Below, one piece after another: positions 46,202 to 62,313 of a DNA stretch of 64,000 bases. The stretch's first letter is position 1. Each line of letters opens with the position of its first letter. A model generated the notes under the pieces. It made no database searches, was not told the origin of the DNA, and saw only the letters and a program-made list of their open reading frames with translations. This DNA is from Gilvimarinus gilvus (GTDB lineage Bacteria; Pseudomonadota; Gammaproteobacteria; Pseudomonadales; Cellvibrionaceae), in assembly GCF_030518155.1 (NCBI RefSeq), contig NZ_JAULRU010000731.1, positions 62,001 to 126,000 of the forward strand, in the 5' to 3' direction. Both the position numbers and the translations under genes were made by a program.

Positions 46202-48091
46202 ATGGCCAATTATTCCGCAGAAGATATTGAAGTCCTCACTGGGCTGGACCCCGTTAAAAAACGCCCGGGCATGTACACCGAAACCACCCGACCCAATCAC
46301 TTGGCACAAGAGGTTATTGATAACAGTGTCGACGAAGCGCTGGCAGGCCACGCCAAAACGCTCAGTGTAACCTTGCATAAAAATCACTCCGTCACTGTTT
46401 CCGATGATGGGCGCGGTATGCCAGTGGACATTCACCCGGAACAAGGTAAACCCGGGGTTGAAGTGATTTTGTCGACCCTGCACGCGGGCGGCAAGTTCTC
46501 CAACAAAAACTATCAGTTTTCCGGTGGTTTGCACGGGGTGGGTGTTTCAGTCGTAAACGCCCTATCGGACTTACTGGAAGTGACCATTCGCCGCGACGGG
46601 CAAGTGCATCAAATCGTATTTTCCAACGGTGAGAAAACCTCCGACCTTACCGTGATCGATACCTGCGGCAAGCGCAATACCGGCACCAGTGTACGCTTTG
46701 TGCCCAACACCAGCTATTTTGACTCGCCCAAATTTTCAGTGAGTCGATTGCGCCATGTGTTGCGCGCAAAGGCCGTACTGTGCCCGGGGTTAACCGTCAA
46801 CTTTAATGACGAAACCTCCGGCGAGAAAGACACCTGGTATTTTGAAGACGGCCTGCGCGATTACCTAAGTGGTAATACTCAGGGTTATGAAGTGTTGCCG
46901 GCACAACCTTTTGTGGGTGAATTTTCAGGCTCTACTGAGGCGGCCAGTTGGGCGGTACAGTGGCTGCCCGAAGGCGGTGAACTGACCCAGGAAAGTTACG
47001 TCAACCTGATTCCTACCGCGCAGGGCGGTACGCACGTCAATGGTTTACGCACCGGCCTGCTCGATGCCATGCGTGATTATTGCGAATTTCGCAGTTTAGT
47101 TCCGCGCGGCGTGAAATTGGCGCCGGAGGATGTGTGGGCCAACTGCAGTTATGTACTTTCCTCCAAATTGTCGGACCCGCAATTTTCCGGGCAAACCAAA
47201 GAGCGTTTAAGTTCGCGCGAGGCGGCGGCTTTTGTCTCCGGTATTGCCAAAGACGCTTTCGCACTGTGGCTAAATCAGCATACCGAGGAAGGCGATAAAA
47301 TTGCCGACTTGTGTATTCACAATGCGCAAAAGCGGGTTCGCTCCTCGAAAAAAGTGGCGCGTAAAAAAATTACACAAGGGCCAGCACTGCCCGGTAAACT
47401 CGCGGATTGCTCCAGCAATGACCCGGCCAACAGTGAACTGTTTTTGGTGGAAGGGGATTCGGCGGGTGGTTCTGCCAAGCAGGCGCGCGATCGCGAGTAC
47501 CAGGCCATTATGCCGCTGCGCGGAAAAATTCTTAACACCTGGGAAGTAGACTCCAGCGAGATTTTTTCCAACCAGGAGGTGCACGATATTTCTGTTGCGC
47601 TCGGTGTAGACCCTGCAACGGATTCACTGGAAGGTTTGCGTTACAACAAAGTGTGTATTCTTGCCGATGCTGACTCCGATGGCCTGCACATCGCTACCTT
47701 GCTGTGCGCGCTGTTTGTTCGCCATTTCCGACCCTTGGTAGCGGCGGGGCATGTGTATGTGGCCATGCCGCCCCTGTACCGAATCGATGTGGGTAAAGAT
47801 GTTTACTACGCGCTTGATGACAGCGAGAAAGCCGGTGTGCTCGACCGTATTGAAGCGGAAAAGAAAAAAGGCAAAGTGGGGGTGCAACGCTTTAAAGGTC
47901 TGGGGGAAATGAACCCGCTACAGCTGCGCGAAACCACCATGGCTAAAGATACGCGCCGACTGGTTCAGCTGCGCGTGGAAGACGGCGACGATACCAATCA
48001 AATGCTCGACATGCTGCTCGCCAAAAAGCGGTCAGCCGATCGAAAAAGTTGGTTGGAGTCGAAGGGCAATTTGGCGGAAGTGGTTGTTTAG
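46202..48091 (+). CDS. parE: DNA topoisomerase IV subunit B
   Basis: ATPase subunit of topoisomerase IV (decatenation of chromosomes). 629 residues. GHKL ATPase motif QEVIDNSVDEALAGH (about 35-49), GGLHGVGVSVVNALS, and the Toprim region with LVEGDSAGGSAKQARDR and DADSDGLHIATLL. Length and IMPLRGKILNTWEVD favour ParE over GyrB. Followed by a strong terminator. No parC in the window. Confidence 0.96.
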   Translation: MANYSAEDIEVLTGLDPVKKRPGMYTETTRPNHLAQEVIDNSVDEALAGHAKTLSVTLHKNHSVTVSDDGRGMPVDIHPEQGKPGVEVILSTLHAGGKFSNKNYQFSGGLHGVGVSVVNALSDLLEVTIRRDGQVHQIVFSNGEKTSDLTVIDTCGKRNTGTSVRFVPNTSYFDSPKFSVSRLRHVLRAKAVLCPGLTVNFNDETSGEKDTWYFEDGLRDYLSGNTQGYEVLPAQPFVGEFSGSTEAASWAVQWLPEGGELTQESYVNLIPTAQGGTHVNGLRTGLLDAMRDYCEFRSLVPRGVKLAPEDVWANCSYVLSSKLSDPQFSGQTKERLSSREAAAFVSGIAKDAFALWLNQHTEEGDKIADLCIHNAQKRVRSSKKVARKKITQGPALPGKLADCSSNDPANSELFLVEGDSAGGSAKQARDREYQAIMPLRGKILNTWEVDSSEIFSNQEVHDISVALGVDPATDSLEGLRYNKVCILADADSDGLHIATLLCALFVRHFRPLVAAGHVYVAMPPLYRIDVGKDVYYALDDSEKAGVLDRIEAEKKKGKVGVQRFKGLGEMNPLQLRETTMAKDTRRLVQLRVEDGDDTNQMLDMLLAKKRSADRKSWLESKGNLAEVVV

Positions 48092-48114
48092 TTTCTATAC
48101 ACTCCTGGTAAGAA

Positions 48115-48145
48115 CGAAAACGAGACTTTCGGTCTCGTTTTTTTT
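48115..48145 (+). terminator. Rho-independent terminator after parE
   Basis: AAAACGAGAC and GTCTCGTTTT pair over a 5-base loop (TTTCG), followed by a run of T. It ends the nudF-to-parE unit. Confidence 0.92.
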
Positions 48146-48213
48146 GCTCTGGATTTCGATATTTTCAGGCTAATGTTCTAATATTTACATGGTTATCGAG
48201 TGGGGGAAGTGAA

Positions 48214-48567
48214 ATGGATTCCAAGCTGGGAAGTTGTCATTGTGGGGCGGTTACTTTTGAAGTAATTTTTAAAAATGGAATGCAGAACATTAGACGGTGT
48301 GATTGCTCGTTGTGTAAGCGAAAAGGCGCGATTATGGTAAGTGTTCCTCTGGCGGATCGAACCGTGACTAACGGTAAGGATGCTCTAACCCTGTACCAAT
48401 GGAACACGAAAACCGCCAAGCATTATTTTTGCAAAGAATGTGGTATCTATACTCACCATCAAAGAAGAAGTGTGCCGACTGAATTTGGTGTTAACGTTGG
48501 TTGCCTTGAAGGCGTAGACCCACTTTCATTGAAAGATGTGGTCATAGGCAACGGGGCGGCGCAATGA
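48214..48567 (+). CDS. GFA/CENP-V-family zinc protein
   Basis: A 117-residue member of the glutathione-dependent formaldehyde-activating (GFA) fold. Zinc-binding cysteines are seen in GSCHCGAV (about 6-13), CDCSLCKRKG (about 30-39) and FCKECG (about 70-75). The GFA family is broad and most members are not formaldehyde enzymes, so no substrate is claimed. Ribosome binding site GGGGGAAGTG precedes the ATG. Confidence 0.85.
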   Translation: MDSKLGSCHCGAVTFEVIFKNGMQNIRRCDCSLCKRKGAIMVSVPLADRTVTNGKDALTLYQWNTKTAKHYFCKECGIYTHHQRRSVPTEFGVNVGCLEGVDPLSLKDVVIGNGAAQ

Positions 48568-48813
48568 GAACTGTAGTGACAGGCGTCGTGAGTGCTACGT
48601 TAAAAAATAGGGTTGGTAGCGTTGTTCATGTGGTTTGACTGGCGTCAAAGGCTCTTTGTTCGTCGGAATATGGTATTGGTTGTTACGTTTTCGTCGTTTT
48701 TGACAAATTGGCGGCTTATCTGTAAAGCTGTTATAACCTTATCGAGCGCAGTTTATTGAGTTATTAATTGCTTGCTCAGTAGTTGTGCCAATCGTTTAGA
48801 CAAGCTGCTGCCT

Positions 48814-49701
48814 ATGCCTGATTCACAGTTCGTAAACCGTTTTAGTTCCAACCGAAAATACTTTGAGCCCTATGGTTTGGCCTGTGTTTATTGGCAGCCT
48901 ACGTCAATGCCGCGCCCAGATTATCACAATGAAATTGAGCTGAATTTTCTGCTTAAGGGCAGTGTCACCTACTTGTTTGGGGGGCATAAAATAACGCTTG
49001 AGGCGGGTAAGTTGGCTGCGTTTTGGGCCGCGATTCCTCACCAGGTTGTCGAATTCTCCAATGATGTCGTTTATTTTGCTGCGACCATACCTTTGCATAC
49101 CTTCTTACAGTGGCGGTTGCCTGACCCTTTTGTGCAGCCTTTATTGCAGGGACATTTATTACAGGAGCTTAGTTGCAACAACAGTGTGACCGATGCCAGC
49201 TTGTTTAAAGGTTGGGAGAGAGATTTGTGCGGTGAAGCGCCTGAACTGGAAGAGATTGTACTGTTGGAAATGCATGCTCGCTTAAGGCGTCTTGCTGTTT
49301 CGCACAGCGGTCAGCCTGTGGCGAGTCAAAGGGGAAATTCTCACCTCGCTGTGCCGGCATCTGAGCTTAGCAGCGTTGAGCAAATGGCGTGCTACATTAT
49401 GAAGAACTACGCCGATAAAATTACGATTCAGCAAGTCAGTGACAGTGTAGGGCTGACTCCCAACTATGCTATGAACCTTTTTAGGCAAACCTTTGGGGCC
49501 ACTATTGGTGATTATCTGACGCAGCACCGCTTGTCACACGCCCAACGATTACTTGTCACTACGACGCTGCCGATTACCAACGTAGCGCTTGAAGCAGGGT
49601 TTGGCTCCATCAGTCGGTTTAATGAGGTGTTTAGCCTTAGTAATGGTTGCTCGCCCCGTCAGTACCGGAAAAAATACTGTATCCGGCAAGGGAAGCAATA
49701 A
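48814..49701 (+). CDS. AraC-family transcriptional regulator
   Basis: About 295 residues: an N-terminal cupin ligand domain (HNEIELNFLLKGSVTYLFGG, about 35-54) and a C-terminal pair of helix-turn-helix motifs (ITIQQVSDSVGLTPNYAMNLF and LPITNVALEAGFGSISRFNEVF). The ATG at 48814 is a guess; the frame is open to a TTG at 48772 and neither has a strong ribosome binding site. It precedes the Sde182/GH115 genes on the same strand and is the likely local regulator, with a sugar or sugar acid as inducer. Confidence 0.88.
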   Translation: MPDSQFVNRFSSNRKYFEPYGLACVYWQPTSMPRPDYHNEIELNFLLKGSVTYLFGGHKITLEAGKLAAFWAAIPHQVVEFSNDVVYFAATIPLHTFLQWRLPDPFVQPLLQGHLLQELSCNNSVTDASLFKGWERDLCGEAPELEEIVLLEMHARLRRLAVSHSGQPVASQRGNSHLAVPASELSSVEQMACYIMKNYADKITIQQVSDSVGLTPNYAMNLFRQTFGATIGDYLTQHRLSHAQRLLVTTTLPITNVALEAGFGSISRFNEVFSLSNGCSPRQYRKKYCIRQGKQ

Positions 49702-49825
49702 GCAAATACCCAACAATAATCATAGTATCCCGGCAGTTTGTGGTGTTATTTAGGAGGAAGTGCGGAATTGGTGGGATTATTATGGGGGTATCTATTCAAA
49801 TAACGATCAATAGGTCGCGCATATT

Positions 49826-51232
49826 ATGAATTACTTTTTAGGACTTCTACTCGTCTTCGTCCCCCTGTTCGGGTTGGCTGAGCCAGCTCATACACCCCTC
49901 AAGCCTCGTATTGTCGTTTTGACCGATATATCGCCGAATCACATCGAGCCCGATGACATGGAGTCGATCATTCGGTTGTTTGCTTACGCCGATCTGTTTG
50001 AAATTGAGGGTATCGTCGCTACAACGGGTTGGAGCAGCGCAGGGGATAACGCCGAGTGGATCAGCTTAATACATGACGCCATTGACGCTTATGAACAAGA
50101 CTTGCCCAAGCTTTCCCGCCGCTCTGGGCAAAAGGAATTCTCCGAGCAAGAAAAGACTCAATGCATTGGGTACTGGCCTAGCCCGGATTATTTAAGGTCA
50201 GTGACTCTGGTTGGCAGTCAGGTTAGGGGAATCGAACATATAGGTGCGGATAACAATACCCCTGGCAGTGAATTGTTGATTGATGTTGCCAGCGAGTCGG
50301 ATGAGCGCCCGGTGTGGGTGCTTGCCTGGGGTGGGGCAAATACTATGGCTCAGGCTGTCTGGCAGTTGCAAAATCAGGGTACAGAGGCAGAACTTACCCA
50401 TTTTTTGAATAAAGTACGCTTGTACACCATCACCGATCAGGATCGCAGCTACAAGAGCGGTACTCCTTTTGATATCAGTGCTCATCAATGGCTGCGCCGT
50501 GAGTTTAAAGAAAAGCTCTTTTTCATCTGGGATGAAAGCGCCTGGCGGTATCAAAACGGTACCGGAAAAGCCAATTGGGAAGAATATGCAAAACACGTCC
50601 AGGGTAAAGGGGCTATGGGCGAGCTATACCCAAAATATAAATATGGTGTTGAGGGGGACTCTCCATCCTTCTTTTATGTATTGCCCAACGGTTTGAATAA
50701 TCCCGAGCGGCCCTCGTGGGGCGGCTGGGGTGGCTACTTTGAATGGGCTATTACGCCGGACGAAGAAACTTACGCGCTGACAAACCATGAAGATATTGAA
50801 GCGGGGAAAATTTCAAGAAAGTACGAAGAGAAATTTTACCCCGCAATATTTAACGATTTTGTAGCGCGTATGGATTGGGTAGAAAATGGCAGTGGGAATC
50901 GTAACCCCGTAGCAACGGTCGATGGGGATCAGAGTCTTAGCCCACTGATGAAAACGCCAACTGCTGGCTCATCCATTACTCTTGACGGTTCTGCCAGCTT
51001 TGATCCCGATGGAGATAATATTAAGGTCTCATGGTGGATTCTGCCAGAGGCGGGCACTTACCAGAAGGAAGTAGAGATTCAGGGTGATGAAAAGGGACGT
51101 GTTAGCGTAACTATTCCGTCCGATGCTGTTGGGCAAAGCTTTCACATAATTATGGAGGTTACGGACGATGGAACCCCTGCACTGACCAGTTACCGACGGG
51201 TTATTGTTAAGCCTGTGAAAGATAAATCATAA
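49826..51232 (+). CDS. Sde182-type nucleoside hydrolase-like exported protein (DUF1593)
   Basis: A 468-residue exported protein of the DUF1593 family, named from the cellulose-binding Sde182 of Saccharophagus. Signal peptide ends near GLA-EP. A nucleoside-hydrolase-like domain (about 27-345) shows VVLTDISPNHIEPDDMES, with the acidic cluster where nucleoside hydrolases hold Ca2+, and WVLAWGGANTMAQAVW. The C-terminal domain (about 370-465) is a beta-sandwich with LDGSASFDPDGDNIKVSWW. It is a tandem partner of the next gene. Biochemical role is not established. Confidence 0.88.
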   Translation: MNYFLGLLLVFVPLFGLAEPAHTPLKPRIVVLTDISPNHIEPDDMESIIRLFAYADLFEIEGIVATTGWSSAGDNAEWISLIHDAIDAYEQDLPKLSRRSGQKEFSEQEKTQCIGYWPSPDYLRSVTLVGSQVRGIEHIGADNNTPGSELLIDVASESDERPVWVLAWGGANTMAQAVWQLQNQGTEAELTHFLNKVRLYTITDQDRSYKSGTPFDISAHQWLRREFKEKLFFIWDESAWRYQNGTGKANWEEYAKHVQGKGAMGELYPKYKYGVEGDSPSFFYVLPNGLNNPERPSWGGWGGYFEWAITPDEETYALTNHEDIEAGKISRKYEEKFYPAIFNDFVARMDWVENGSGNRNPVATVDGDQSLSPLMKTPTAGSSITLDGSASFDPDGDNIKVSWWILPEAGTYQKEVEIQGDEKGRVSVTIPSDAVGQSFHIIMEVTDDGTPALTSYRRVIVKPVKDKS

Positions 51233-51286
51233 AGTTATACGTTAAAGCGGCGGCTGATGGCCACTGGCTCCAATGTAGAGGTGCAA

Positions 51287-52876
51287 ATGTTTTTATTTAA
51301 TAAGTTTGCTGTGGTCGCCCTTCTTGTAGTTTCGGGTTTTGCTCAAGGCAATGCACTGACCGGTACGGTAAAAGACGAGAGCACTAATATTCCCATTGTC
51401 GGGGCGAAGGTCAGCTTGGCTAATCAAGGTGTAACGGTAGTCACAAACAGTGAGGGAGAATTTACTCTTAAGTATGAAAATTCTGATTCCCCAAGTGTTA
51501 TCCAAGTAACAGAAAGGCGGTACTGGCAGAGGGAAATCCCATCTTCACTTAATGATAGCTCCCCATTGAATGTCCGCCTGCAGGCGAAAAAGCAAAGACT
51601 CATTATTACCACAGATATAGGCGGCGTTGATCCTGATGACTTACAGTCTTTGCTTCATGCCTTACTCTTATCAAATGAATATGATTTGGAGGGAATTATT
51701 TATGGTCATGCCTGGGTAGAGTCAAGTCCAGAGCGGGGAAGAAGTCGAATTGAAAAAGCGATTGATGCCTACGGCAAGGTTTATGAAAATTTAACAGTGC
51801 ACTCAACAGAGTATCCGACCCCTAATTACTTAAGATCGATAGTAAGAGCGGGGCAGGCCGAGCCGCGAATGGAAGGTGCCGGGAAGGGAAAGGACAGCGA
51901 AGGCTCGAATTTGATTGTTACGCTAGTTGAAAACGACGATCCGAGGCCAGTGTGGATAAATGCCTGGGGTGGTGCCAATACCATCGCTCAGGCTTTCTGG
52001 AAAGTTAATGCGACGCGCTCAAAGGGCGACCTTGATAAATTTGTCAGTAAGGTCAGGGTTTATGATATTTTGGGGCAAGATGATAGTGGCTCGTGGATCG
52101 CAAAAACATTTCCCAATGTGACCTATATTCGCAACGCAGACGGAGTATATGGTTGGGCACCGGAGAAAGCTTGGACGGCAGAGCATGTACAAAGTCATGG
52201 TCCCATCGGTAGTTTATACCCTACCTCTAAATGGGCGACAGAAGGTGATTCTCCGGCATTTTTACACCTTGCATCGCGAGGATTAAACAATCCGAATAGT
52301 TTAACGCAAGGTGGTTGGGGAGGAAGATTTGGCGCCCAAAAGACTACCGGCGTGAAGCTGTTTAGTTGGGCTGAGAAAACTCCAGAAGTGTATGCCCATG
52401 AACAAACGTTGAAACCTTACGCGTTGTACACCAATACAGCGGAGGGTGCCGCAGCGATCAAAAAATGGCAGCCAGATATTGATAACAGCCTGGCTGTGCG
52501 AATGGATTGGTCAGTAACACCTAACTGGACGGATGCAAATCATTTTCCTGTTGCTATTTTAGAGGGAGATAAAACCCGACAAATACTGGAGCGGTCGGTA
52601 ACTGCCGGAGAGGAAATTATTCTTAGTGCGGACGGCTCGTCAGATCCGGATAATGACTCTTTGGTTTTCTCATGGCTGTATTATAATAAGGCAAGCACGT
52701 ACGATGGTGCTGTTGACTTACAGGGTCACACTACTCCCGCCGTTAAAATTAAAGTTCCTGAAGATTCATTTGGTAAGACTATTCACATTATCTTAGCAGT
52801 GCGCGATAGCGGAGCGCCTACCCTTGCGGCTTATAGAAGAATGATATTAAAGGTGAAAAATCCTTCGCCGCCATAA
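51287..52876 (+). CDS. Second Sde182-type protein with CarboxypepD_reg-like N-domain
   Basis: About 529 residues. The ATG at 51287 has AGAGGTG upstream and opens a signal peptide ending near FAQGNA. Unlike its neighbour it carries an extra N-terminal beta-sandwich (about 22-100, GTVKDESTNIPIVGAKVSLA; carboxypeptidase-regulatory-like). Then come the nucleoside-hydrolase-like domain (TTDIGGVDPDDLQS, WINAWGGANTIAQAFW) and the C-terminal Sde182 domain (LSADGSSDPDNDSLVFSWLY). It follows the first copy by 54 bases. Codon use is visibly more AT-rich than that of the first copy, which suggests separate origins rather than a recent tandem copy. Confidence 0.87.
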   Translation: MFLFNKFAVVALLVVSGFAQGNALTGTVKDESTNIPIVGAKVSLANQGVTVVTNSEGEFTLKYENSDSPSVIQVTERRYWQREIPSSLNDSSPLNVRLQAKKQRLIITTDIGGVDPDDLQSLLHALLLSNEYDLEGIIYGHAWVESSPERGRSRIEKAIDAYGKVYENLTVHSTEYPTPNYLRSIVRAGQAEPRMEGAGKGKDSEGSNLIVTLVENDDPRPVWINAWGGANTIAQAFWKVNATRSKGDLDKFVSKVRVYDILGQDDSGSWIAKTFPNVTYIRNADGVYGWAPEKAWTAEHVQSHGPIGSLYPTSKWATEGDSPAFLHLASRGLNNPNSLTQGGWGGRFGAQKTTGVKLFSWAEKTPEVYAHEQTLKPYALYTNTAEGAAAIKKWQPDIDNSLAVRMDWSVTPNWTDANHFPVAILEGDKTRQILERSVTAGEEIILSADGSSDPDNDSLVFSWLYYNKASTYDGAVDLQGHTTPAVKIKVPEDSFGKTIHIILAVRDSGAPTLAAYRRMILKVKNPSPP

Positions 52877-53115
52877 AAGTGTTCGAGATTGTTGTCAGAA
52901 GAATGGTAGAAATATCGTTTTACATCAGTTTTGGATTCAATGTAGTTGAACAGATATGGTCGGCAGCTCTGCAGCCGTAAGCCTTGTCCGAACGGCATTG
53001 ATTGATTATTTTAGTATGGCTGCCGCTTCGTTCAGATTTGTTTGAAGCTTATCGCTAAATGGAGAAGGTGCCGTCACCAGAATGAAGGTGGTAACTTTAT
53101 GTAACTACTCGTGCG

Positions 53116-53150
53116 ATGTTGCCCGTGAAGGGATTGCTCACGGGCAACAT
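53116..53150. terminator. Hairpin between the Sde182 and GH115 genes
   Basis: A perfect 13-base stem (ATGTTGCCCGTGA with its complement TCACGGGCAACAT, 9-base loop) lies between the convergent genes. It is not followed by an immediate U-tract, but T-rich sequence starts about 10 bases on. The rest of 52877-53178 holds nothing recognised. Confidence 0.6.
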
Positions 53151-53178
53151 AGACAATCGCTTTTGCCTTCTTTTTTGA

Positions 53179-55755
53179 TTACTGTTTTATCGGCGTATCT
53201 GTTTTTGCTGATTTAATAATCAGTTTTTCAAGTACCATGTTGTCATCAATCCGGAAGACTTTTAACTCATGCTCGCCTGTAGTGAGCTCGGTAAAGGTCA
53301 TTTCAAGCAGCTGTTTGTTGTTTATAACTGCTTTGGCCCAGGCTTTTTCCTGGGGGGTATGCTGGCCGCCACCGGTGGCGTGTAAGTCAAAGCTGAGGGT
53401 TTTAGCAGGCTTGCCATCAACGGCTACGGCTAAACGAACACCGCCGCGCGCTATCGTATCCAAGGTGGGGCTGAGTTCCAGAGTTACGTGAGCATCGCCA
53501 TGGTGGGGTTGATTGAACTTGTAGCTCAAGGCGATATTATCACCCACTGATGTTGGCTTTTGTCCTTGGGGCAGGGCGAGCATGCCCGCATTGGACTGGC
53601 CCAAGTGCTTCACCGCAGTCCAGGTAAGCCCTTTGGCGTTGGATGCGGTGTCAAAATCACTGGCATCAATTACCTGAATGTTTTCAGGTTGATCCATAGC
53701 CTCAAACTGAACCTCGATATTGTTTTTACCGCCGTAAATTTTTGACACAGTTGGCATGGTCTGTTCTTCCGGGTCATTCCAGGTCACATAATTCATATGC
53801 ACCTGATTGATCATGCCATCCCACTTTCCATCGTTAATTTGGTGATACTTATCGGTCAGATCCGAATCACGCTGGAAATTGGTCTGCACAAGTTCCATAA
53901 AATGATTGGAGCGTGCATCCCCGACCTCCACCAGCGCTTTGTTCCAGGCGGCGGCAAAGTACATCTCATACAAATTGCTCATTGAGGCGATGGGCCACTC
54001 CACCAATTGGAAGAATGCGGAATATTGCGCTTTATTGATTTGCTTTTTCACCGCAATCATATCCTGCTCGAGCCGCTGCCATTTGGTGTAATGGCCATAG
54101 AACTCTCCACCCTTAAGTTTTGGCTCGGCAATTTCACCAATCTCAAAAGTATTCTCGTTCAGTAGCTCCGGCTTGCGCATGGCGGCGTAGGTACCATAGC
54201 GCTCTATCAGGTCGGCCACTTTTGGCGCTAATTCTGTACCGAAAGACTGCGCGGCGAACTGCTCTGCATAGTCGCGCAGAGCGTGAGTATCCATGGCTTC
54301 GGGGTTCCATGCCATGGTCAGAAAGAAATCAATGGGAAATTCGATGGGTTTTAAATCGCCCACATTGACCACCCATAGATCCTCGGCACCGCGTTGGTAG
54401 GATAAATTCATCTGCTGCCAGACCTTGCCGATCTGCACAGTATTGGTCCATTTGTAGTTGCGCGGCACACCTACATAGTCAAAATGATAATAAACACCGA
54501 AACCGCCTTCGCGATTGACGTCTTTGGTTGGCAGGCGACGTACTAACCCCCAGTTATCGTCGGCGAACAGCAAGGTTACGTCATCGGGTACTGTCATTCC
54601 TTTGTCGTAATAATCTTGCACTTCTTTATACAGCGCCCATACTTGCGGAGTTTGCTTGGCAGGTTTTTCGGTCACATCGGCAATAATGTCTCGTTGGTCG
54701 GCAACCACTTGTTCCAGCAGTTCGATGGCTGTGCCCTCAGACATAGGCTCATCGCCATCGCCACGCATACCTACAGTTACCAGTGACTCATAGGGCGTGC
54801 CATCTTTTTTAGACATCATGCGCTCGATGCCGCCCCGCCAGAATTTACGAATACTTTCACCGTTGGTTTCGTAATTCCAGGCTCCGCCACCTGTTGGGTT
54901 TTCGGATTTACGGTGCCACTCGGCATGGGCTCGGGTCATGGGTTCGTGGTGTGAGGTGCCCATGACAATACCCATGTCATCAGCCAATGCTGTATTTTTG
55001 GGGTCATCTAGATGAAAAGCCTTGCCCCACATGGCCGGCCAGATATAGTTGCCCTTGAGGCGCAGAAGTAGATCAAAGACCTTTTCATACATGCCCGAGT
55101 TAACGCCACCAAATTTTTTCTGCGCCCAGCCTTTTAACGCCGGATCTTCATCATTGATGAAAATTCCACGATAACGAACTTTAGGTTGGTCGCTTCTGCT
55201 GCCTGGCGTCACATATACGTTGTTTTGTTGTTGAGTTGGTACATCGGCAAACCAGTACCAAGGTGATACGCCCATTTGTTCTGATAGATCAAAGGTGCCA
55301 AATACTGCACCGCGGCGATCCGAGCCAACTACGACCAAGGCCTGATCGACTCCTGGCCAGGGTTTGTCGACAACGGCAACCTGATAAGCCTCCCATTGTC
55401 CGCGTATGGCATCGACATCCAATTTCCCCTGGCTCACTAACTCTTCAATCAGCGGATTTTCGCCCAACACCCCAATAAGGACGAGCGAACCCTCAGCCTG
55501 TTTGACGCTGGTGAGGAGCTCGCTGTTCGAGCCGCTAACCCTCTCTAAGTCGTCGCTAAATGCATCGGCTGCTCGGCGAACCGCAGAATTAGCATTGGCA
55601 GAGATGACTACAGGTAGCGGCTTGCCGTTCTGAATAAGAGGGAAGCCACTATTTTCGTCCAGACAAATAGTCGCCGGTGACTCGCACGCCCATGCGCCCG
55701 TTGATACTGATGAAATTGCGCATAAAAATGCGGCTGATTTAATGATAGATCGCAT
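53179..55755 (-). CDS. Xylan alpha-1,2-glucuronidase, GH115
   Basis: An 858-residue exported GH115 enzyme that removes (4-O-methyl)glucuronic acid from xylan. Signal peptide ends at GAWA-CE. A first domain (about 25-190) precedes the catalytic barrel with YRGIFINDEDPAL, YIWPAMWGKAF and the motif GTSHHEPM (about 265-272) and GMRGDGDEPM (about 328-337). A C-terminal helical region and beta-sandwich end the protein. No lipobox, so periplasmic or secreted. It is divergent from a second GH115 gene. Confidence 0.93.
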   Translation of the reverse strand: MRSIIKSAAFLCAISSVSTGAWACESPATICLDENSGFPLIQNGKPLPVVISANANSAVRRAADAFSDDLERVSGSNSELLTSVKQAEGSLVLIGVLGENPLIEELVSQGKLDVDAIRGQWEAYQVAVVDKPWPGVDQALVVVGSDRRGAVFGTFDLSEQMGVSPWYWFADVPTQQQNNVYVTPGSRSDQPKVRYRGIFINDEDPALKGWAQKKFGGVNSGMYEKVFDLLLRLKGNYIWPAMWGKAFHLDDPKNTALADDMGIVMGTSHHEPMTRAHAEWHRKSENPTGGGAWNYETNGESIRKFWRGGIERMMSKKDGTPYESLVTVGMRGDGDEPMSEGTAIELLEQVVADQRDIIADVTEKPAKQTPQVWALYKEVQDYYDKGMTVPDDVTLLFADDNWGLVRRLPTKDVNREGGFGVYYHFDYVGVPRNYKWTNTVQIGKVWQQMNLSYQRGAEDLWVVNVGDLKPIEFPIDFFLTMAWNPEAMDTHALRDYAEQFAAQSFGTELAPKVADLIERYGTYAAMRKPELLNENTFEIGEIAEPKLKGGEFYGHYTKWQRLEQDMIAVKKQINKAQYSAFFQLVEWPIASMSNLYEMYFAAAWNKALVEVGDARSNHFMELVQTNFQRDSDLTDKYHQINDGKWDGMINQVHMNYVTWNDPEEQTMPTVSKIYGGKNNIEVQFEAMDQPENIQVIDASDFDTASNAKGLTWTAVKHLGQSNAGMLALPQGQKPTSVGDNIALSYKFNQPHHGDAHVTLELSPTLDTIARGGVRLAVAVDGKPAKTLSFDLHATGGGQHTPQEKAWAKAVINNKQLLEMTFTELTTGEHELKVFRIDDNMVLEKLIIKSAKTDTPIKQ

Positions 55756-56245
55756 AGTTGAGCCACGCCCCTGAGTATATTGTCATTTTATTGGTCATTT
55801 AAACCGTAATATCTTATGCTGCTGGGGTACTAGTATGCAAGCTGTGTGGTTGATGCTCGGGAAGACCTTAGTCTCTCCTCCGGCAGCCAGGCGGATACCC
55901 AAGCCAGTGACGGGCTTTTACGGTTAGGCTCTGATCGGCACGGCCATGGCTAATAGGCTTAATCCATACGATTGTCTAAAGATGTTTTTTAAGCCCTGCC
56001 CAACGTGCAGAGCGTTGAGGGTGTAAAAAAGCTGATACCTGGGAGCTTTGCCAAACCGCATGAACAGTGCAACAGGAGCATTGGCGTGAGGTGCCCCGCG
56101 CATTGCCTTTTTTAAGAGAGGGTATAGAGTATAGTCGCTATCACCATAAGCTGGTTGGCTACAGAACCTGTAGAGACAAAAACGCTCCCTAGGTAAGCTG
56201 CTGGTCTCTGTGATTAATAATAATATTTTTAGAGGTTTAGTTTTT
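55756..56245. promoter_or_regulatory. Shared upstream region of two divergent GH115 genes
   Basis: 490 bases with no supported gene; the open frames here are on the wrong strand or run into the second enzyme's signal peptide. An 8-base palindrome TACTAGTA (55828-55835) and an AT-rich stretch (55780-55815) lie near the minus-strand gene and are candidate operator and promoter. The AraC regulator or a GntR-type regulator outside the window could act here. Confidence 0.35.
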
Positions 56246-59215
56246 ATGATATCTCTTAACCGATTTTCCAGGGCGATGGCAGTGTTGCTTGCGGTGGCAA
56301 TTGTTGGCTGCTCGAAGGTTGCAGATACGGATAGTTCGAGTGAGGGGTGGGTGCCGTACGACGGCATGATGCCCGTCGCCACCGAAGCCCACCATTATTT
56401 TGCTGTGCCCTTTATGGAAGTTCTTGAGTCTCCTGCAAGTGGTGCTCTGGAGATCGCTGCCAACGGTGCAGTGACCTCAATCTACCATAGCGCAGAAGAC
56501 GCGAAGGTTGTGGAGATTGCCTCTGCCGCCCTGCGCGACGACATTGAGCGGGTGACCGGATTGCGGGCCTCCGTCAGTACGGATACTCCACAGTCAGCAT
56601 CGGCTATTCTGGTTGGTACCGTAGGGCAAAGCCCTTTAATAGACGGGCTCGTCGATGCTGGAAAAATTGATGTCGCAGCTATTAAAGGAAAATGGGAGGC
56701 TTATACCGCAGCCGTTGTCGACAATCCTTTGCCCGGTGTCGAGCGCGGACTGGTTATTGCGGGCAGCGACAGGCGCGGTACCGCCTTCGGCGTTTTTGGC
56801 TTGTCCGAATCCATAGGGGTATCACCTTGGCATTTTTGGGGCGACGTACCGGCTCCGCAAAAGCCTTCGCTCTATATTGCCGGTAGCCATACCCAGCACT
56901 CTCCCGGTGTAAAGTACCGCGGTATTTTTATTAATGACGAAGACTGGGGTTTTCAGCCTTGGGCGGCGAACACCTTTGAGCCAGAGGTTGGCAATATTGG
57001 GCCTCGAACCTACGCGACGGTATTTGAACTTGTGCTGCGCCTATACGGCAACGTTATCTGGCCTGCCATGCACGAATTTCCGGTTAAGAGTACCCCCTTT
57101 TATGAAATTCCGGAAAACAAAGTAGTCGCAGACAACTACGCGATTGTTATTAGCACGTCACATCACGAGCCCATGCTCACCAATAGCCACGAATACGATG
57201 AGGACATTCACGGCCCTTACGATTATTGGAGCAATCGCGACCGTATATTTGATTTTTGGCAAGATCGTGTAAAAGAAACGGCCGACTACGAAAATATCTA
57301 CACCATTGGTATGCGCGGGCGTCGGGACGAGGGCATGATGGCTCCGGAAGGTACAACGAATGAGGAGAAAGCGGCGAAAATTCAGAATACCATTATTCCC
57401 GATCAGCGGAGTATGATCGCCAATTTTGTGCATCCAACTCCCTCGGACGTTCCCCAGATATTCATTCCTTATAAGGAAACTCTGGTGCAATACCAGTCGG
57501 GCCTAAAATTACCCGAAGATGTCATCATTTTGTGGCCCGATGATAATCACGGTTATATTCGCCAACTCTCAACGCCCGAGGAAAGTGCGCGCTCTGGCGG
57601 GTCAGGCGTCTACTATCACATGCAATACTGGGGCGTGCCGCGCAGTTATTTATGGTTTCATAGCACCCCGTTAGGGATGACCCATTCAGAAATGTTAAAA
57701 GCCTGGGATTTTAATGCTCATAATATCTGGATCAACAACGTGGGTGATATTAAACCCTATGAAATTGGCACTGAGTTCTTTATGCGCCTGGCCCGCAACC
57801 CAGAAGCCTTCAGGAATTTTGACCAGCATGAATATTTGACCCAGTGGGCGGCACGTACCTTTGGCAACGAATACGCCGATGCTATTGCCGCGATTTTAGG
57901 GGACTACTATCGCCTCAATATCGTTAAGCGGCCTGAGCAACTCGATTTAAATAACAGTGGATTTAGCCATGTAGAAAACGGTGATGAAGCACAGCAGCGC
58001 CTGGATGCTTTTGCTGATTTAACCGCAAGGGCCAACGGGGTTTATGAGCAGCTGCCGGCATCACACAAACCTGCCTTCTACGAAATGGTGCTCTATTCGG
58101 TCCGCGCATCTGATTTGATTAATCAGAAAGTTCTTCTGGCGGAGCGGAGCCGATTGTGGGAAATCCAGGGCCGCGCCGCCACTGTATCCTCGGCCGCAAA
58201 GGCGCAAGCCGCCCAGAAAGCCCTGCTAGAGGAAGTGCGCTTTTACAACAAAGAAAACGCCAATGGCAAATGGGACGGTATGGTGAGCCCCATGCCTTTG
58301 TCAGAATTACCAAACTGGGCCCACGACACTCAGCGCGCCTGGACCATGCCAGAGGTTGGCGACTACAACCCAGGCTCAGAGGCGGGTCTCGGGGTAATGG
58401 TAGAGGGCTCCTCTGAGCCACTTAACGACAACCCAGCCGAGCTACCTACATTCAGTCGCCCGGCGGATGCCAGCCACTTTATTGATATTTTTAATCGTGG
58501 GGATGAGGCCCTCAGCTGGACTGCGGAACCAAGTGAGCCATGGATTAATCTGAGCCAAACCCGCGGAGTGTACGATGTTCGTATCTGGGTGAGTATAGAT
58601 TGGGCGAAGGCGCCTTACGATAACGCGGTGTCCGGGGCTATTACAGTTACCGGCGCGGGCTCAACGCGTACTATCAATCTTAACGCCTATAACCCTGAGG
58701 GCCTAGAGCTCGCAGCGCTCCCGGATGCCGTCGAACACAATGGTGTGACAGGACTTTTGGCGGTTGACTTTAAGGCGCGTAAAGACCTTGATAACGGCAC
58801 GGGCTGGCGTCGGGTCAGCCAGGCAACGGCTTCCGGTGATGGTATGACGATTCAGCCGGTAACAGCCCCGACTATCGACCTGGATAACCTCGCTCAGAGC
58901 AGTCCATCTCTGAGTTATGATTTTTATGCGTATAACACAGGGGCAGCCACCATTTACACCCAGACGCTGCCCACCCATAAGCTCACCTCAGGCCATAAAG
59001 GTTTACGCTATGCCATTTCATTGAACGGCGACAAGCCGCGTATTGTCGATATCCATGCGGATGAATACACCGAAGCCTGGAACGCCAACACGCTGAGGGC
59101 CGCAGCCATTGGCGTGACGAAACATCAAATCGCAGCGCCTGGTTTGCAAACGATTCAGGTTTGGATGGTTGATGCAGGCGTAATGCTAGAAAAGTTCACG
59201 GTTAAGGTGGAATAA
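56246..59215 (+). CDS. GH115 alpha-glucuronidase, lipoprotein
   Basis: About 989 residues. ATG at 56246 with AGAGG ten bases upstream; lipobox VAIVGC (Cys22) marks a lipoprotein. The catalytic barrel shows YRGIFINDEDWG, NVIWPAMHEFP, STSHHEPM (about 302-309) and GMRGRRDEGM (about 355-364). It has a longer C-terminus than the divergent enzyme, with an extra beta-sandwich (about 740-830). The GDGDEP segment of the first enzyme is GRRDEG here, so the two are likely to prefer different substrates or placements on xylan. Surface-anchored while the other is soluble is a sensible pair. Confidence 0.92.
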   Translation: MISLNRFSRAMAVLLAVAIVGCSKVADTDSSSEGWVPYDGMMPVATEAHHYFAVPFMEVLESPASGALEIAANGAVTSIYHSAEDAKVVEIASAALRDDIERVTGLRASVSTDTPQSASAILVGTVGQSPLIDGLVDAGKIDVAAIKGKWEAYTAAVVDNPLPGVERGLVIAGSDRRGTAFGVFGLSESIGVSPWHFWGDVPAPQKPSLYIAGSHTQHSPGVKYRGIFINDEDWGFQPWAANTFEPEVGNIGPRTYATVFELVLRLYGNVIWPAMHEFPVKSTPFYEIPENKVVADNYAIVISTSHHEPMLTNSHEYDEDIHGPYDYWSNRDRIFDFWQDRVKETADYENIYTIGMRGRRDEGMMAPEGTTNEEKAAKIQNTIIPDQRSMIANFVHPTPSDVPQIFIPYKETLVQYQSGLKLPEDVIILWPDDNHGYIRQLSTPEESARSGGSGVYYHMQYWGVPRSYLWFHSTPLGMTHSEMLKAWDFNAHNIWINNVGDIKPYEIGTEFFMRLARNPEAFRNFDQHEYLTQWAARTFGNEYADAIAAILGDYYRLNIVKRPEQLDLNNSGFSHVENGDEAQQRLDAFADLTARANGVYEQLPASHKPAFYEMVLYSVRASDLINQKVLLAERSRLWEIQGRAATVSSAAKAQAAQKALLEEVRFYNKENANGKWDGMVSPMPLSELPNWAHDTQRAWTMPEVGDYNPGSEAGLGVMVEGSSEPLNDNPAELPTFSRPADASHFIDIFNRGDEALSWTAEPSEPWINLSQTRGVYDVRIWVSIDWAKAPYDNAVSGAITVTGAGSTRTINLNAYNPEGLELAALPDAVEHNGVTGLLAVDFKARKDLDNGTGWRRVSQATASGDGMTIQPVTAPTIDLDNLAQSSPSLSYDFYAYNTGAATIYTQTLPTHKLTSGHKGLRYAISLNGDKPRIVDIHADEYTEAWNANTLRAAAIGVTKHQIAAPGLQTIQVWMVDAGVMLEKFTVKVE

Positions 59216-59677
59216 AATCATTGAATAAAAGGTGGTGCCTCTCTATTAAGTTGAGTCGAGAGCGCTCAACTGGCAAATAGCGACACAGAGGGTCTGCTTA
59301 TTCTAAACATTGTGTTAAAAGTGATGGTAAAGCGGGATGATTTAATGAACCGTTTTGTTCACCACCTTTGCAAATTCTAAAGGTTGAAGCTCTGCAGGCT
59401 GCGCTTTGTTGCAGAAAAATGGTGCGCAGTGTGCTTACCTTATTTGTGGCAGAGTCTATAGAAGTGGGGCGGGCCATTTTGAATGGCCTGCCCCACTTTC
59501 TTCGAAGCAGTAGTTCATGGCAAAGGAGTACAAAAACAACGCGATGACAACCGTCGTGTGTGCTACATTGAAAGTATGTGAAGGAGTAATAGAAGCAGCA
59601 TTGTCAATCGGACGGTTTTATTAAGTTTGTAGGCCAAACAGTGGTTGTTTGATCTTCCCTCTTTAGGTTGAGAGTTT
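59216..59677. other. Intergenic region after the GH115 lipoprotein
   Basis: 462 bases without a supported gene apart from a strong hairpin at 59462-59498. A 26-codon frame at 59544 has no recognised product; the sequence at 59541-59573 matches 48573-48605 at 25 of 33 positions by eye. Confidence 0.4.
59462..59500. terminator. Long hairpin terminator
   Basis: A 17-base stem (AAGTGGGGCGGGCCATT with AATGGCCTGCCCCACTT, one G-U pair) with a 3-base loop, flanked by short A and T runs. It lies about 250 bases after the GH115 stop, so it ends a long 3' leader or a small RNA. Confidence 0.7.
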
Positions 59678-60061
59678 ATGTGGCGATACGTTTTGACTGT
59701 ATTGCTGCTTTCTGCAGCGTTAGTACTTGCTGATCCGGTTGAAGAAGCCGAATCAGTATCGTTAGATGATGCAAAGAAGCTCTCCAATTTGCATTTTGAC
59801 TGGCACAGCTACTTCGTACGTCGTACTTTACTGCCCGAATACAGCGATATGGGATCAAAAGTAATAAGATACTGTGAAAGTAAGGGGCCAGTATATGCAG
59901 AGTATGCAGTAATTTTTGAATTAAACGAGAAGGGGTTCGTTGAGCGTTTGTATTTTGAAACGCCAGAGTATCAGCTTAATTGTGTCAAACAGCAGATGAA
60001 AAGAATGTCTTTTACTGAGCCGCCTATCGCTCCTTTCTATTTACATGTCCATCAGTTCTGA
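59678..60061 (+). CDS. Small exported protein, unknown
   Basis: A 127-residue protein with a signal peptide (MWRYVLTVLLLSAALVLA). The mature part has a helix, then a beta pattern EYAVIFELNEKGFVERLYFE and two cysteines (in YCESKG and QLNCVKQ). The shape recalls TonB C-terminal-like small domains, but no family is recognised. It converges on the kinase gene. Confidence 0.6.
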   Translation: MWRYVLTVLLLSAALVLADPVEEAESVSLDDAKKLSNLHFDWHSYFVRRTLLPEYSDMGSKVIRYCESKGPVYAEYAVIFELNEKGFVERLYFETPEYQLNCVKQQMKRMSFTEPPIAPFYLHVHQF

Positions 60062-60119
60062 CACTTTTTCGCAGTAGGTTGAGTGCCAGCGCCTAAGTTG
60101 CTTGCATGAGATACATTGT

Positions 60120-61700
60120 CTAAGCCAGTTTTTTAGTTAGATGTTCAACCAATGGCTTGAATCGGTAGTTCTGTAAGTAAGGCTTGAGCTCCTCCGCGAA
60201 GCCTTGATAGTGTTCATCTATTTCCAGTTTTTCTACCGCTTTTCTTAAGGCTAAAATATTGTGCTTCTGGGCAAGCTCAATCAACGCTTCAATTTTCTCT
60301 GTTGGCGGAGCGTTTACACGGGAGCTTTGTTTGGCTGAAGGGTTAAACATCGCGGCGTTACTTGCGGCGAGTCCTTGCGCTGTAGCAAGGTGGAGGTTAA
60401 AGAAAAAGTCGCTGCCTTGGTCCGGTGTGCTGGAAACTTTGAGCTTGGCGTTCATTAGCTGCAAAATCCTCTGGCTAATGGTTAGTCCAAGGCCAGACCC
60501 CTCAGAGCGTGTGATGTCGTTGTCCACTTGAACAAAGGGTACAAAAATCATCGCTAAGTCACTGGTGGAAATGCCAATGCCGGTATCGCGAATGCTAAAG
60601 CGAAGGTCGGCAGAGTCGTTTCCCGTTTTCAGAAGTTCAACTCTGAGGGTTACTCTGCCTTTTTCGGTAAATTTAATCGCGTTGCCAATTAGATTCAGTA
60701 AGACCTGTCTCAGTCGTTTTTCATCGGCGTGTACCGCCGTTGGTAAACGTTCCGGAACCTCGCAGACAAACTCTATGCCTTTGGGGCGAGCATGAGCTTG
60801 CGCCATGTCACATATTGTTTTCAAAAAGTGAATAAATGATGTTTCTACAGCAGTGAGGGTTATTGTGTCTTGATTGGTGCGGGAGAAGTCGAGAATGTCA
60901 TTGATCATCAGCAGCAAATGGTCAGCACTGCGATCAATGGTTTCAATCCCCTGGCGGTGCGTCTTCATCAGTGCACCATCTTCTTTGTACAGTTGGGTGT
61001 AGCCCAGTATGGCGTTGAGTGGCGTACGCAATTCGTGCGTTACGTTTGCCATAAATCGAGTTTTCGCGCGGTCAGAATCTTCAATGACTTGTTTGGCGGC
61101 GTTGAGTCGGTAGAACATCACCAGCATGGTAAGCCAAACGACCACCATTAGGGCTAGTGCAACACTGGACTCCGCCATCAGCTTAGACTTCATTTCCTGA
61201 CTGAGGTCTTGAAAGTAAGCGTCGCTGAGCTTGAAGTCGGCGATACCGATAAGTTCACCGTTAGTGGTGAACAGCGGGATACTTGCGTGAAAGCAACTGG
61301 CGCACGCGGTATTGCCCTCGATAAAATCCAAAGATCCTGACTGCGCCTCAACGGTTTGATAGTCGAGCTCCAGAGTAAGGCCTTCCACGATACTTTGGCC
61401 AATTGCGGGGTCCTCCACCAGCAGAATTTCCTGCACTGTATCATTTAGATGGTTAGGTTGTCCGCTTGCAAGTGCCAGGCTAAGGGACTGTTGCAGTAGG
61501 TTGGCCTGCGACTCTGCGAGGATAGTCGCCTGTGTCTCTGCGGTGCGATACAGTCTTGGTTGTAAGCTATTAGACCAGTATCTATTGAGGGCTACAACGA
61601 AGCTGGTGATGAGCACTAAGAATACGATGCAGATAACCAGCGGTGTTTTTATGCCGCCAATTTTAAGTGCATGGGCAATGGTAGACACGGTTCTATTCAT
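60120..61700 (-). CDS. Membrane sensor histidine kinase
   Basis: A 526-residue kinase. Helices at about 18-38 and 180-197 enclose a periplasmic sensor domain (about 40-178) with the motif CASCFH (Cys133, Cys136, His138), one residue off the c-type haem CxxCH. The phospho-accepting motif THELRTPLN (His222) and an HATPase domain with N, G1 and G2 boxes (LNLIGNAIKF, RDTGIGIS, GSGLGLTISQ) follow. No receiver domain, and no response regulator in the window. Overlaps the YfiR-like gene by eight bases. Confidence 0.92.
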   Translation of the reverse strand: MNRTVSTIAHALKIGGIKTPLVICIVFLVLITSFVVALNRYWSNSLQPRLYRTAETQATILAESQANLLQQSLSLALASGQPNHLNDTVQEILLVEDPAIGQSIVEGLTLELDYQTVEAQSGSLDFIEGNTACASCFHASIPLFTTNGELIGIADFKLSDAYFQDLSQEMKSKLMAESSVALALMVVVWLTMLVMFYRLNAAKQVIEDSDRAKTRFMANVTHELRTPLNAILGYTQLYKEDGALMKTHRQGIETIDRSADHLLLMINDILDFSRTNQDTITLTAVETSFIHFLKTICDMAQAHARPKGIEFVCEVPERLPTAVHADEKRLRQVLLNLIGNAIKFTEKGRVTLRVELLKTGNDSADLRFSIRDTGIGISTSDLAMIFVPFVQVDNDITRSEGSGLGLTISQRILQLMNAKLKVSSTPDQGSDFFFNLHLATAQGLAASNAAMFNPSAKQSSRVNAPPTEKIEALIELAQKHNILALRKAVEKLEIDEHYQGFAEELKPYLQNYRFKPLVEHLTKKLA

Positions 61701-62283
61701 GCCTCTTGGCCACCTTTAAGTAAAAGCTTTTGATATCGATACCGCTCGATTCGAGAGTTGTTATATTGATAAGAGGCTTAATGGTTGCTTCGACGGATAG
61801 CCCGCCAAGTACACCACCTTCAACATCCCCCTCGTACGGGGAAAACGAAATAATGTGCTGTTCAATGGTGTAGTGAACTACCGTGGCCAGTTCGTTGCTG
61901 TTTAGCTTCTGTGAAATAAACAGCGCTCGCGGCGTGAAATTTTTGGTGTGGCTAATCGCGTCTAATGCGATGGTTTTAGCGGGTGGGGTACCCGAGTATG
62001 CGGTACTTTCGTTGAACTGTAGAGCGTGCTGTTCGGCCAAGGTTTGATCGGTGACATAGACAAAGTAAATATCGTCGCCGGCATCGCTCGTAACGTTTTG
62101 TTCGGCGGCGAGCAAGGTGCGGAATAACTTAATGCCGACGTGCGCACGCCGGTCACTGAATGAATCGGCAACCAAGCTCTGGCTGGGAAGGGAAAGCAGA
62201 AGGCACAACAGCAGTAGCTGAACGCCTTGAGCTAACTTTGCTATCCCTTTACCCCTTGTCAATGGCTGAATACATCGTTGCAC
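61693..62283 (-). CDS. YfiR-like exported protein (DUF4154), tentative
   Basis: A 196-residue protein with a long N-terminal hydrophobic segment (about 21-38) and a predicted cleavage near LVA-DS. The mature region has LFRTLLAAEQ, a Rossmann-like alternation and the C-terminal GGLSVEATIKPLINI, the region that in YfiR-family proteins gives the conserved strand. YfiR-type proteins are periplasmic and hold back partner membrane signalling proteins. The neighbourhood (receptor upstream, kinase overlapping downstream) fits such a sensor role. The family call is by pattern only. Confidence 0.55.
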   Translation of the reverse strand: MQRCIQPLTRGKGIAKLAQGVQLLLLCLLLSLPSQSLVADSFSDRRAHVGIKLFRTLLAAEQNVTSDAGDDIYFVYVTDQTLAEQHALQFNESTAYSGTPPAKTIALDAISHTKNFTPRALFISQKLNSNELATVVHYTIEQHIISFSPYEGDVEGGVLGGLSVEATIKPLINITTLESSGIDIKSFYLKVAKRHE

Positions 62284-62313
62284 AAAGACGTCTCATAGTC
62301 TGTCACTTCCGTG

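Follow-up and report, generated by a model that had tools for sequence, protein, structure and literature searches.

We analysed a stretch of 64,000 nucleotides from the gammaproteobacterium Gilvimarinus gilvus (assembly GCF_030518155.1, contig NZ_JAULRU010000731.1, positions 62,001 to 126,000 of the forward strand), which we call the window. It holds a cluster of five genes that lie in this order: a regulator of the AraC type, two tandem genes for Sde182-type proteins and two divergent genes of glycoside hydrolase family 115 (GH115). An earlier, sequence-only reading of this DNA had described the set at 49826-59215. All five genes are present, the regulator (48772-49701) lying just upstream of that range. 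The features, including the nucleoside-hydrolase-like (NH-like) domain of the Sde182-type proteins, are the following.

48772..49701, + strand: AraC/MelR-like regulator (PF12833, 71 bits; PF00165); the probable true start is the ATG at 48814
49826..51232, + strand: Sde182-type protein 1 (Sde1), with an NH-like domain and a C-terminal beta-sandwich (PF07632, 254.6 bits; PF21027, 100.4 bits)
51287..52876, + strand: Sde182-type protein 2 (Sde2) (PF13715; PF07632, 282.7 bits; PF21027, 82.2 bits); the likely start is the ATG at 51287, the open reading frame being listed from 51257
53179..55755, - strand: GH115a, a predicted alpha-glucuronidase (PF15979, 494 bits; PF17829, 99 bits)
55756..56245, no strand: gap of 490 bp between the likely starts of the divergent GH115 genes, where promoters are expected
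56246..59215, + strand: GH115b, a predicted lipoprotein with a variant active site (PF15979, 403 bits; PF17829, 102 bits); the likely start is the ATG at 56246, the open reading frame being listed from 56210

Sde1 and Sde2 belong to the Sde182 family, scoring above the curated Pfam cut-offs of both PF07632 (26.8 bits) and PF21027 (27 bits), and GH115a and GH115b belong to GH115, each matching PF15979 as well as the C-terminal PF17829. In Sde2 a signal peptide is followed by a CarboxypepD_reg-like domain, the NH-like domain and the C-terminal PF21027. GH115b carries the lipobox IVGC (AVAIVGC). Judging signal peptides by eye, we expect all four proteins to be exported, GH115b as a lipoprotein. 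The regulator reaches 175 bits with the MelR model, under the cut-off of 253 for that model.

The pairing of Sde182 with GH115 is real, and it is concentrated in one gammaproteobacterial family, that of the host. The host genome has three copies of PF07632 and five of GH115, and each of the PF07632 copies, two in the window and one on contig C464, has GH115 no more than a few kb away. In a genome of the same genus (G007), the counterparts of AraC (66%), Sde1 (72%) and GH115a (58%) are collinear on one strand, where a GH51-type arabinofuranosidase precedes AraC. A genome of another genus (G026) has AraC (56%), two Sde182 genes and a GH115b orthologue (66%) side by side on mixed strands. The series found in G091 consists of GH115, Sde182, GH115, the D-mannonate dehydratase ManD (725 bits, cut-off 550) and GH43; upstream of these lie genes for a TonB receptor and a tryptophan halogenase.

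Among the 144 genomes of the host's family that we searched, PF07632 scored above its cut-off in 18 and GH115 was found in 56. Both families occur in 12 of the 18 PF07632 genomes, GH115 in 44 of the 126 others (Fisher p 0.018, with relatedness ignored). The 42 rows for PF07632 gave 31 loci, after two had been omitted (the second piece of a frameshifted gene in G155 and a copy in G162 below the cut-off) and copies starting at most 15 kb apart had been merged; G012 was counted despite a partial match (51 bits), a separate Sde182 profile having found no gene there. GH115 lies within 10 kb of 6 of the 31 loci (5 of the 18 genomes) against 0.23 expected, and GH10 (75 copies) likewise of 6 loci, two of them fusions, against 0.65 expected. 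One or the other family is that close to 10 of the 31 loci. The control family GH43 (167 copies), counted by eye, was near at least 2 loci against 1.16 expected, and PF13204 (GH140-like; seven strong copies, not counting one that barely passes the cut-off with 27.0 bits and three that fall short of it) near 2 loci against 0.10 expected. All these expectations were derived from genome size and copy number and assume uniform placement and independent genomes, neither of which holds strictly. Some genomes (G023 and G082) are fragmented, and the absence of neighbours there is uninformative.

Some Sde182 domains are moreover tied to xylan by GH10, a link that is supported by fusions and by neighbouring genes. 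In Planctomycetes bacterium CA13 a fusion of GH10, a GDSL esterase and Sde182 (L057:8018-11302) falls into the same clade as Sde1 in the tree. The order GH10-CBM5/12-Sde182 is encoded at L131:7491-11144 and again at L126:6870-10558, where a frameshift divides the Sde182 part over two reading frames; since the latter two come from one genus, the three GH10 fusions represent two lineages. Separate GH10 genes are found at distances of 1.3 to 8.2 kb from Sde182 in L030, L043, L071, L104, L123, L131 and L132, and in L061 two Sde182 genes are followed by one for a glucuronyl esterase. A further fusion (L055) joins Sde182 to a GDSL domain. Both GDSL-esterase fusions concern relatives of Sde1 and lend slight support to the suggestion, made in the sequence-only reading, that Sde182 acts on deacetylated xylan products. 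For the companion suggestion of a role on sugar-acid products we found no specific pointer; the NH fold suggests a furanose instead.

The 933-aa Sde182 protein of Saccharophagus degradans 2-40 (G149) is identical to PDB entry 2yhg at 414 of 415 aligned residues, which makes it Sde_0182, the type of PF07632/PF21027. It contains a CBM2, a malectin-like and an NH-like domain, and its gene starts about 50 bp downstream of a GH10-CBM5/12 gene of the same orientation (L139:6639-11208). Like Sde_0182, the proteins of the window combine an NH-like domain with a C-terminal beta-sandwich, and their genes have the gene of a xylan-type enzyme next door. Unlike it, they have neither a CBM2 nor a malectin-like domain; Sde2 carries a CarboxypepD_reg-like domain instead, the insert in the first metal loop of Sde1 is longer, and the partner is GH115 and not GH10.

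An AlphaFold2 model of Sde1, based on an alignment of 34 sequences, is a confident one (mean predicted local distance difference test score, pLDDT, 90.8; predicted template modelling score, pTM, 0.90) and gives the protein an NH fold. Its closest match is 2yhg, with the same two-domain organisation (Z 49.4, root-mean-square deviation (rmsd) 1.4, 395 residues aligned); for Sde2 this two-domain likeness comes from sequence only (phmmer, 424 bits to 2yhg). Next in the comparison with the Sde1 model are nucleoside hydrolases (Z about 17-19, rmsd 2.7-3.5, 232-250 residues), several of which were solved with ribose or inhibitors. The Sde182 proteins of the window share with the inosine-uridine nucleoside hydrolases (E. 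coli YbeK and the enzymes of Leishmania and Crithidia) the domain fold, the Asp cluster of the first loop and the late Asp. They differ in that they are 9-17% identical to these enzymes, are predicted to be exported and possess the C-terminal sandwich, and in the spacing of the N-terminal motif. The canonical form of this motif in nucleoside hydrolases is DTDxGxDD, while Sde1 has TDISPNHIEPDD and Sde2 has TDIGGVDPDD, with the Asp residues retained and their spacing altered.

Residue conservation was followed over 152 aligned stretches from proteins of at least 400 aa, some of which supply several stretches, and the comparison included Sde182 subfamilies down to 28% identity. The putative metal-site Asp residues, whose positions we take to follow from the fold and from the usual numbering of nucleoside hydrolases, are retained in 127 of 127 (D34), 129 of 129 (D43), 126 of 129 (D44) and 126 of 129 (D278) rows with a letter. 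W301, like D34, is unchanged, and Q205, D206, E276 and D278 are nearly so. Such conservation of pocket residues across distant subfamilies suggests a working pocket. Three paralogues of G034 (L034, L035 and L036) have D44 changed to E together with D278 changed to G and may serve as a natural test of the metal site; a GH115 search of that genome found none.

In the passages of PMC8910321 available to us, Sde_0182 is described as having preserved a Ca ion and as inactive on nucleosides, and it is termed a catalytically inactive, furanose-interacting module. An Aspergillus niger gene that encodes the domain (under the printed label DUF159), at about 30 fragments per kilobase per million reads (FPKM), clusters with genes of plant-polysaccharide carbohydrate-active enzymes (CAZymes) on straw, according to the accessible part of PMC5294722. 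The structure is said there to suggest action on a furanose sugar, none being shown in that part. The NH fold suggests a furanose as the substrate of Sde182, as both sources indicate.

For the GH115 enzymes we numbered residues as in wtsAgu115A (PMC9063842), with an index offset of two, and chose Trp220 and Asp407 as additional markers. The closest solved structures are 4zmh and 4c90 for GH115a, and 4zmh followed by 5by3 for GH115b. The motifs are FINDED, WPAMWG, MRGDGD and YYHFDYV in GH115a and FINDEDWG, WPAMHE, MRGRRD and YYHMQYW in GH115b. From alignment and motifs, both proteins have Asp177, Arg299, Asp303 (the proposed general acid) and Tyr403. GH115a also retains Trp220 (in WPAMWG) and Asp407 (in YYHFDYV), and it keeps all six marker equivalents of the xylan alpha-1,2-glucuronidases (SdeAgu115A, 4zmh; BoAgu115A, 4c90; wtsAgu115A, 7pug), of which GH115b keeps four. 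The view of the sequence-only reading that GH115 acts here on glucuronoxylan therefore fits GH115a, which has the residues of xylan-active members, but two glucuronoxylan enzymes would be too strong a claim.

GH115b resembles BtGH115A (5by3) in the motifs INDEDWG and WPAMHE, in a His at position 220 and in a residue other than Asp at 407 (Ser in BtGH115A, Gln in GH115b). As far as the available text of PMC9063842 goes, BtGH115A is reported to act on arabinogalactan but to have no activity on glucuronic acid (GlcA) linked to xylan, and Trp633 is fully conserved among the structurally determined xylan-specific GH115 enzymes, BtGH115A having Phe. GH115b scores higher against 4zmh than against BtGH115A (535 vs 452 bits) and along more of its length, and its alignment shows a Trp at the position of Trp633. 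A Trp is aligned there in GH115a (to 7pug) as well as in GH115b (to 4zmh), in a region that aligns poorly according to the same source. With two substrate- or metal-site residues lacking, GH115b may target another glycan than xylan. Its relatives with nearly the same motifs adjoin Sde182 in G026 and G091.

We consider it very probable that the cluster is a functional unit for a plant glycan, and the substrate is probably of the xylan type, though with clear reserve. Our best explanation, to which we give an even chance, is that the five genes form an AraC-regulated module that removes side chains from xylan or from a closely related GlcA-bearing plant glycan. GH115a would remove alpha-linked (4-O-methyl-)glucuronic acid, and GH115b would perhaps do likewise on a different acceptor. 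On the same chains, a terminal furanosyl (pentose) decoration would be held by its vicinal hydroxyls in the metal site of the NH-like domain, and Sde182 would most likely hydrolyse the O-glycosidic bond of this decoration. Its removal would allow xylanases and GH115 to proceed, and the AraC protein would respond to a released sugar. For the removal of GlcA by GH115 we rely on family knowledge, and hydrolysis of the furanosyl bond is what we infer as the most likely activity of Sde182. Whether the Sde182 proteins are catalysts rather than binders seems to us evenly balanced. The more specific proposal that the NH-like domain represents a new, metal-dependent glycoside hydrolase family, which cleaves xylan decorations that are O-linked furanosyl (or capped-GlcA pentosyl) units and so unblocks GH115, is tentative, and we would incline to doubt it.

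Several observations weigh against the reading as a xylan-debranching module. No xylanase or xylosidase was found in the cluster, and the nearest GH10 gene found in the window (3643-4929) is 45 kb away. GH115b lacks Trp220 (His) and Asp407 (Gln), so that two substrate- or metal-site residues are changed. In Sde1 the position that we take to be that of the acid His of nucleoside hydrolases appears to be Gly277, and a profile comparison of 34 Sde1 relatives with the single sequence of E. coli RihC, a weak test with such a partner, gave no signal (probability 0.15%). The genomes compared within the host's family are related, and their counts are thus not independent. Moreover, 4 of 27 GH115 copies have GH10 at a distance of 10 kb or less; GH115 and GH10 therefore cluster together, and part of the enrichment around Sde182 may be due to general clustering of xylan genes.

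What was found outside the family also weighs against the module reading. We examined the best 80 of at least 565 loci most like Sde1, whose titles are mostly of Bacteroidota, with some Planctomycetota and others, taking up to 10 kb of DNA on each side and often less at contig ends. GH115 is near only 1 of these 80 nearest relatives, and 4 (L043, L057, L071 and L104) have GH10 either within the Sde182 gene itself or close by. Among 296 Bacteroidota genomes that were drawn, 27 have PF07632, and 14 of the 27 have a GH115 match, three of these being weak or partial. GH115 lies within 10 kb of 1 of the 37 Sde182 loci in Bacteroidota (0.13 expected) and within 30 kb of 3 (0.38 expected). A tally of neighbours (96 of 320 proteins within 2.5 kb, at 26 loci) gave five AraC-type proteins and three of GH43, the rest being scattered; it omitted, among others, the AraC-type genes at L059, L070, L071 and L072, which had already been found by profile. 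No family is frequent in this tally, which makes arguments from neighbourhood weaker in Bacteroidota. The sequence-only reading had proposed a survey of co-occurrence and had named its absence from other genomes, together with a lack of induction by xylan, as the outcome that would speak against its view. The pairing does recur in relatives of the host (6 of 31 loci, G007 and G026), but it is rare among the nearest relatives of Sde1 at large (1 of 80) and among the Bacteroidota loci (1 of 37).

The Sde182 family as a whole is not limited to xylan. Other subfamilies (G155 and G159) stand beside pectin-type genes (GH88, GH78 and GH140-like) and a pentose-type catabolic operon. In Stieleria sedimenti (L093:9920-18236), four Sde182 genes, one of them with two NH-like domains, have a pectate lyase among them, and fusions join Sde182 to an alpha-L-fucosidase-like domain in L094 and to a gluconolactonase-like domain in L100. 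The genes at L128:9221-10600 and L123:16026-17417 are GH88 (PF07470).

The strongest rival explanation regards the Sde182 proteins as non-catalytic, furanose-binding modules that hold GH115 or xylanases on their substrate. The apparent replacement of the general acid by Gly277 would agree with this, as would the CBM2 and malectin-like domain carried by the type protein. It is also how PMC8910321, in the part available, describes Sde_0182, as catalytically inactive and furanose-interacting; however, only nucleosides are named there as substrates that were tested. Furthermore, D34 and W301 are unchanged and Q205, D206, E276 and D278 nearly so, even at 28% identity, and Sde1 and Sde2 are free-standing proteins without fusion to an enzyme. 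On balance we regard a purely binding role as unlikely, while giving it more weight than any other rival.

Next, the module may act on another GlcA-bearing glycan (arabinogalactan protein, rhamnogalacturonan II (RG-II) or another pectin, or an algal polymer) and not on xylan. The motif WPAMHE and the residue other than Asp at 407, which GH115b shares with BtGH115A, reported to be active on arabinogalactan (PMC9063842, in part), would fit such a target, as would the further Sde182 copies beside GH140-like, GH88 and GH78 genes and the placing of GH115 in a predicted ulvan locus (a passage of PMC13050008). But GH115a retains the residues of xylan-active members, a Trp is aligned at Trp633 in both GH115 proteins, albeit in a poorly aligning region, and the GH10 fusions and neighbours, one of them in the Sde1 clade, point to xylan. 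A different glycan is therefore, in our estimation, rather improbable for the module as a whole.

It is very improbable that the neighbourhood arose by chance or by hitch-hiking on a horizontally acquired carbohydrate island. The GC content is lower over 48-56 kb (0.46-0.50) than over 30-48 kb (0.51-0.55), although comparable drops are seen at 22-28 kb and 60-62 kb, and PF07632 is patchy in the host genus (4 of 8 genomes); against this stand the 6 of 31 loci with 0.23 expected and the neighbours common to two other genomes. Least credible of all is that the Sde182 proteins are ordinary nucleoside hydrolases of nucleoside salvage that lie beside GH115 by chance, since the likeness in fold to nucleoside hydrolases solved with ribose (Z about 19) is countered by signal peptides (by eye), by fusions to CAZymes and by an insertion in TDISPNHIEPDD that breaks the DTDxGxDD spacing. 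The crystallised relative, too, is reported to be inactive on nucleosides (PMC8910321, available passages).

If the proposal of a new hydrolase family is true, the NH fold would have been adopted for breaking down polysaccharides, and paralogues would act across xylan, pectin and possibly apiose-bearing glycans. A catalytic Sde182 would offer a new way to debranch plant fibre. The structure of this enzyme-like fold was released in 2011, and the open-access literature examined holds no demonstrated substrate for it. The pairing with GH115 and GH10, the GH10-Sde182 fusions and the GH10 neighbour of the type protein suggest xylan side chains as the target of at least some members, which makes the question of the substrate assayable with available substrates. 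Each of the genes belongs to a known family; what appears to be new, as judged by the open-access literature, is the joint evidence from the GH115 pairing, the GH10 fusions and the GH10 neighbour of the type protein. In that literature, subscription journals being outside its scope, we found no paper under the family names DUF1593 or PF07632 and, by a narrow search, none linking Sde182 to GH10 or to an apiosidase. The original structure paper by Hehemann and colleagues from 2011 may mention part of the joint GH115/GH10 evidence.

Contig C39 of G159 (L127/L128) has five Sde182 genes in about 32 kb, together with a xylose-isomerase-like triose-phosphate isomerase (TIM) barrel protein, a split transketolase and an FGGY kinase. 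L127 and L128 also hold a ribose-type ATP-binding cassette (ABC) importer, GH88, GH78 and a GH140-like protein. We considered a D-apiose pathway, which this set resembles, and rejected the assignment: no NCBIfam model among the matches names such a pathway, and the kinase scores over the cut-off of a glycerol-kinase subfamily (553.9 vs 498). A possible branched-pentose (apiose-like) pathway stays a lead, and it applies to subfamilies other than those of the window.

Among the 80 loci nearest to Sde1, 11 have an AraC/MelR-like gene within 2 kb of Sde182, and 14 have two or more Sde182 genes. In the window, a scan of 48000-60200 for consensus promoters and terminators gave 12 and 14 sites, respectively, with no excess over shuffled sequences. 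A complete xylan utilisation locus would be expected to combine an endo-xylanase with a TonB receptor of the sugar type, a pair that was not found in this cluster. The host has a second GH10 gene (contig C792:53326-54345) on the same contig, about 12 kb from the GH10 gene of the window at 3643-4929, and both lie at least 45 kb to the left of the GH115 cluster. The TonB receptor of the window, from 62314 onwards, has its top scores, all below the cut-offs, with models for B12, haem and siderophores. It belongs to the region downstream of the cluster (60120-63942), which also encodes a histidine kinase and a small exported protein that matches no family, and the N-terminus of the receptor runs on beyond the edge of the window in the host genome.

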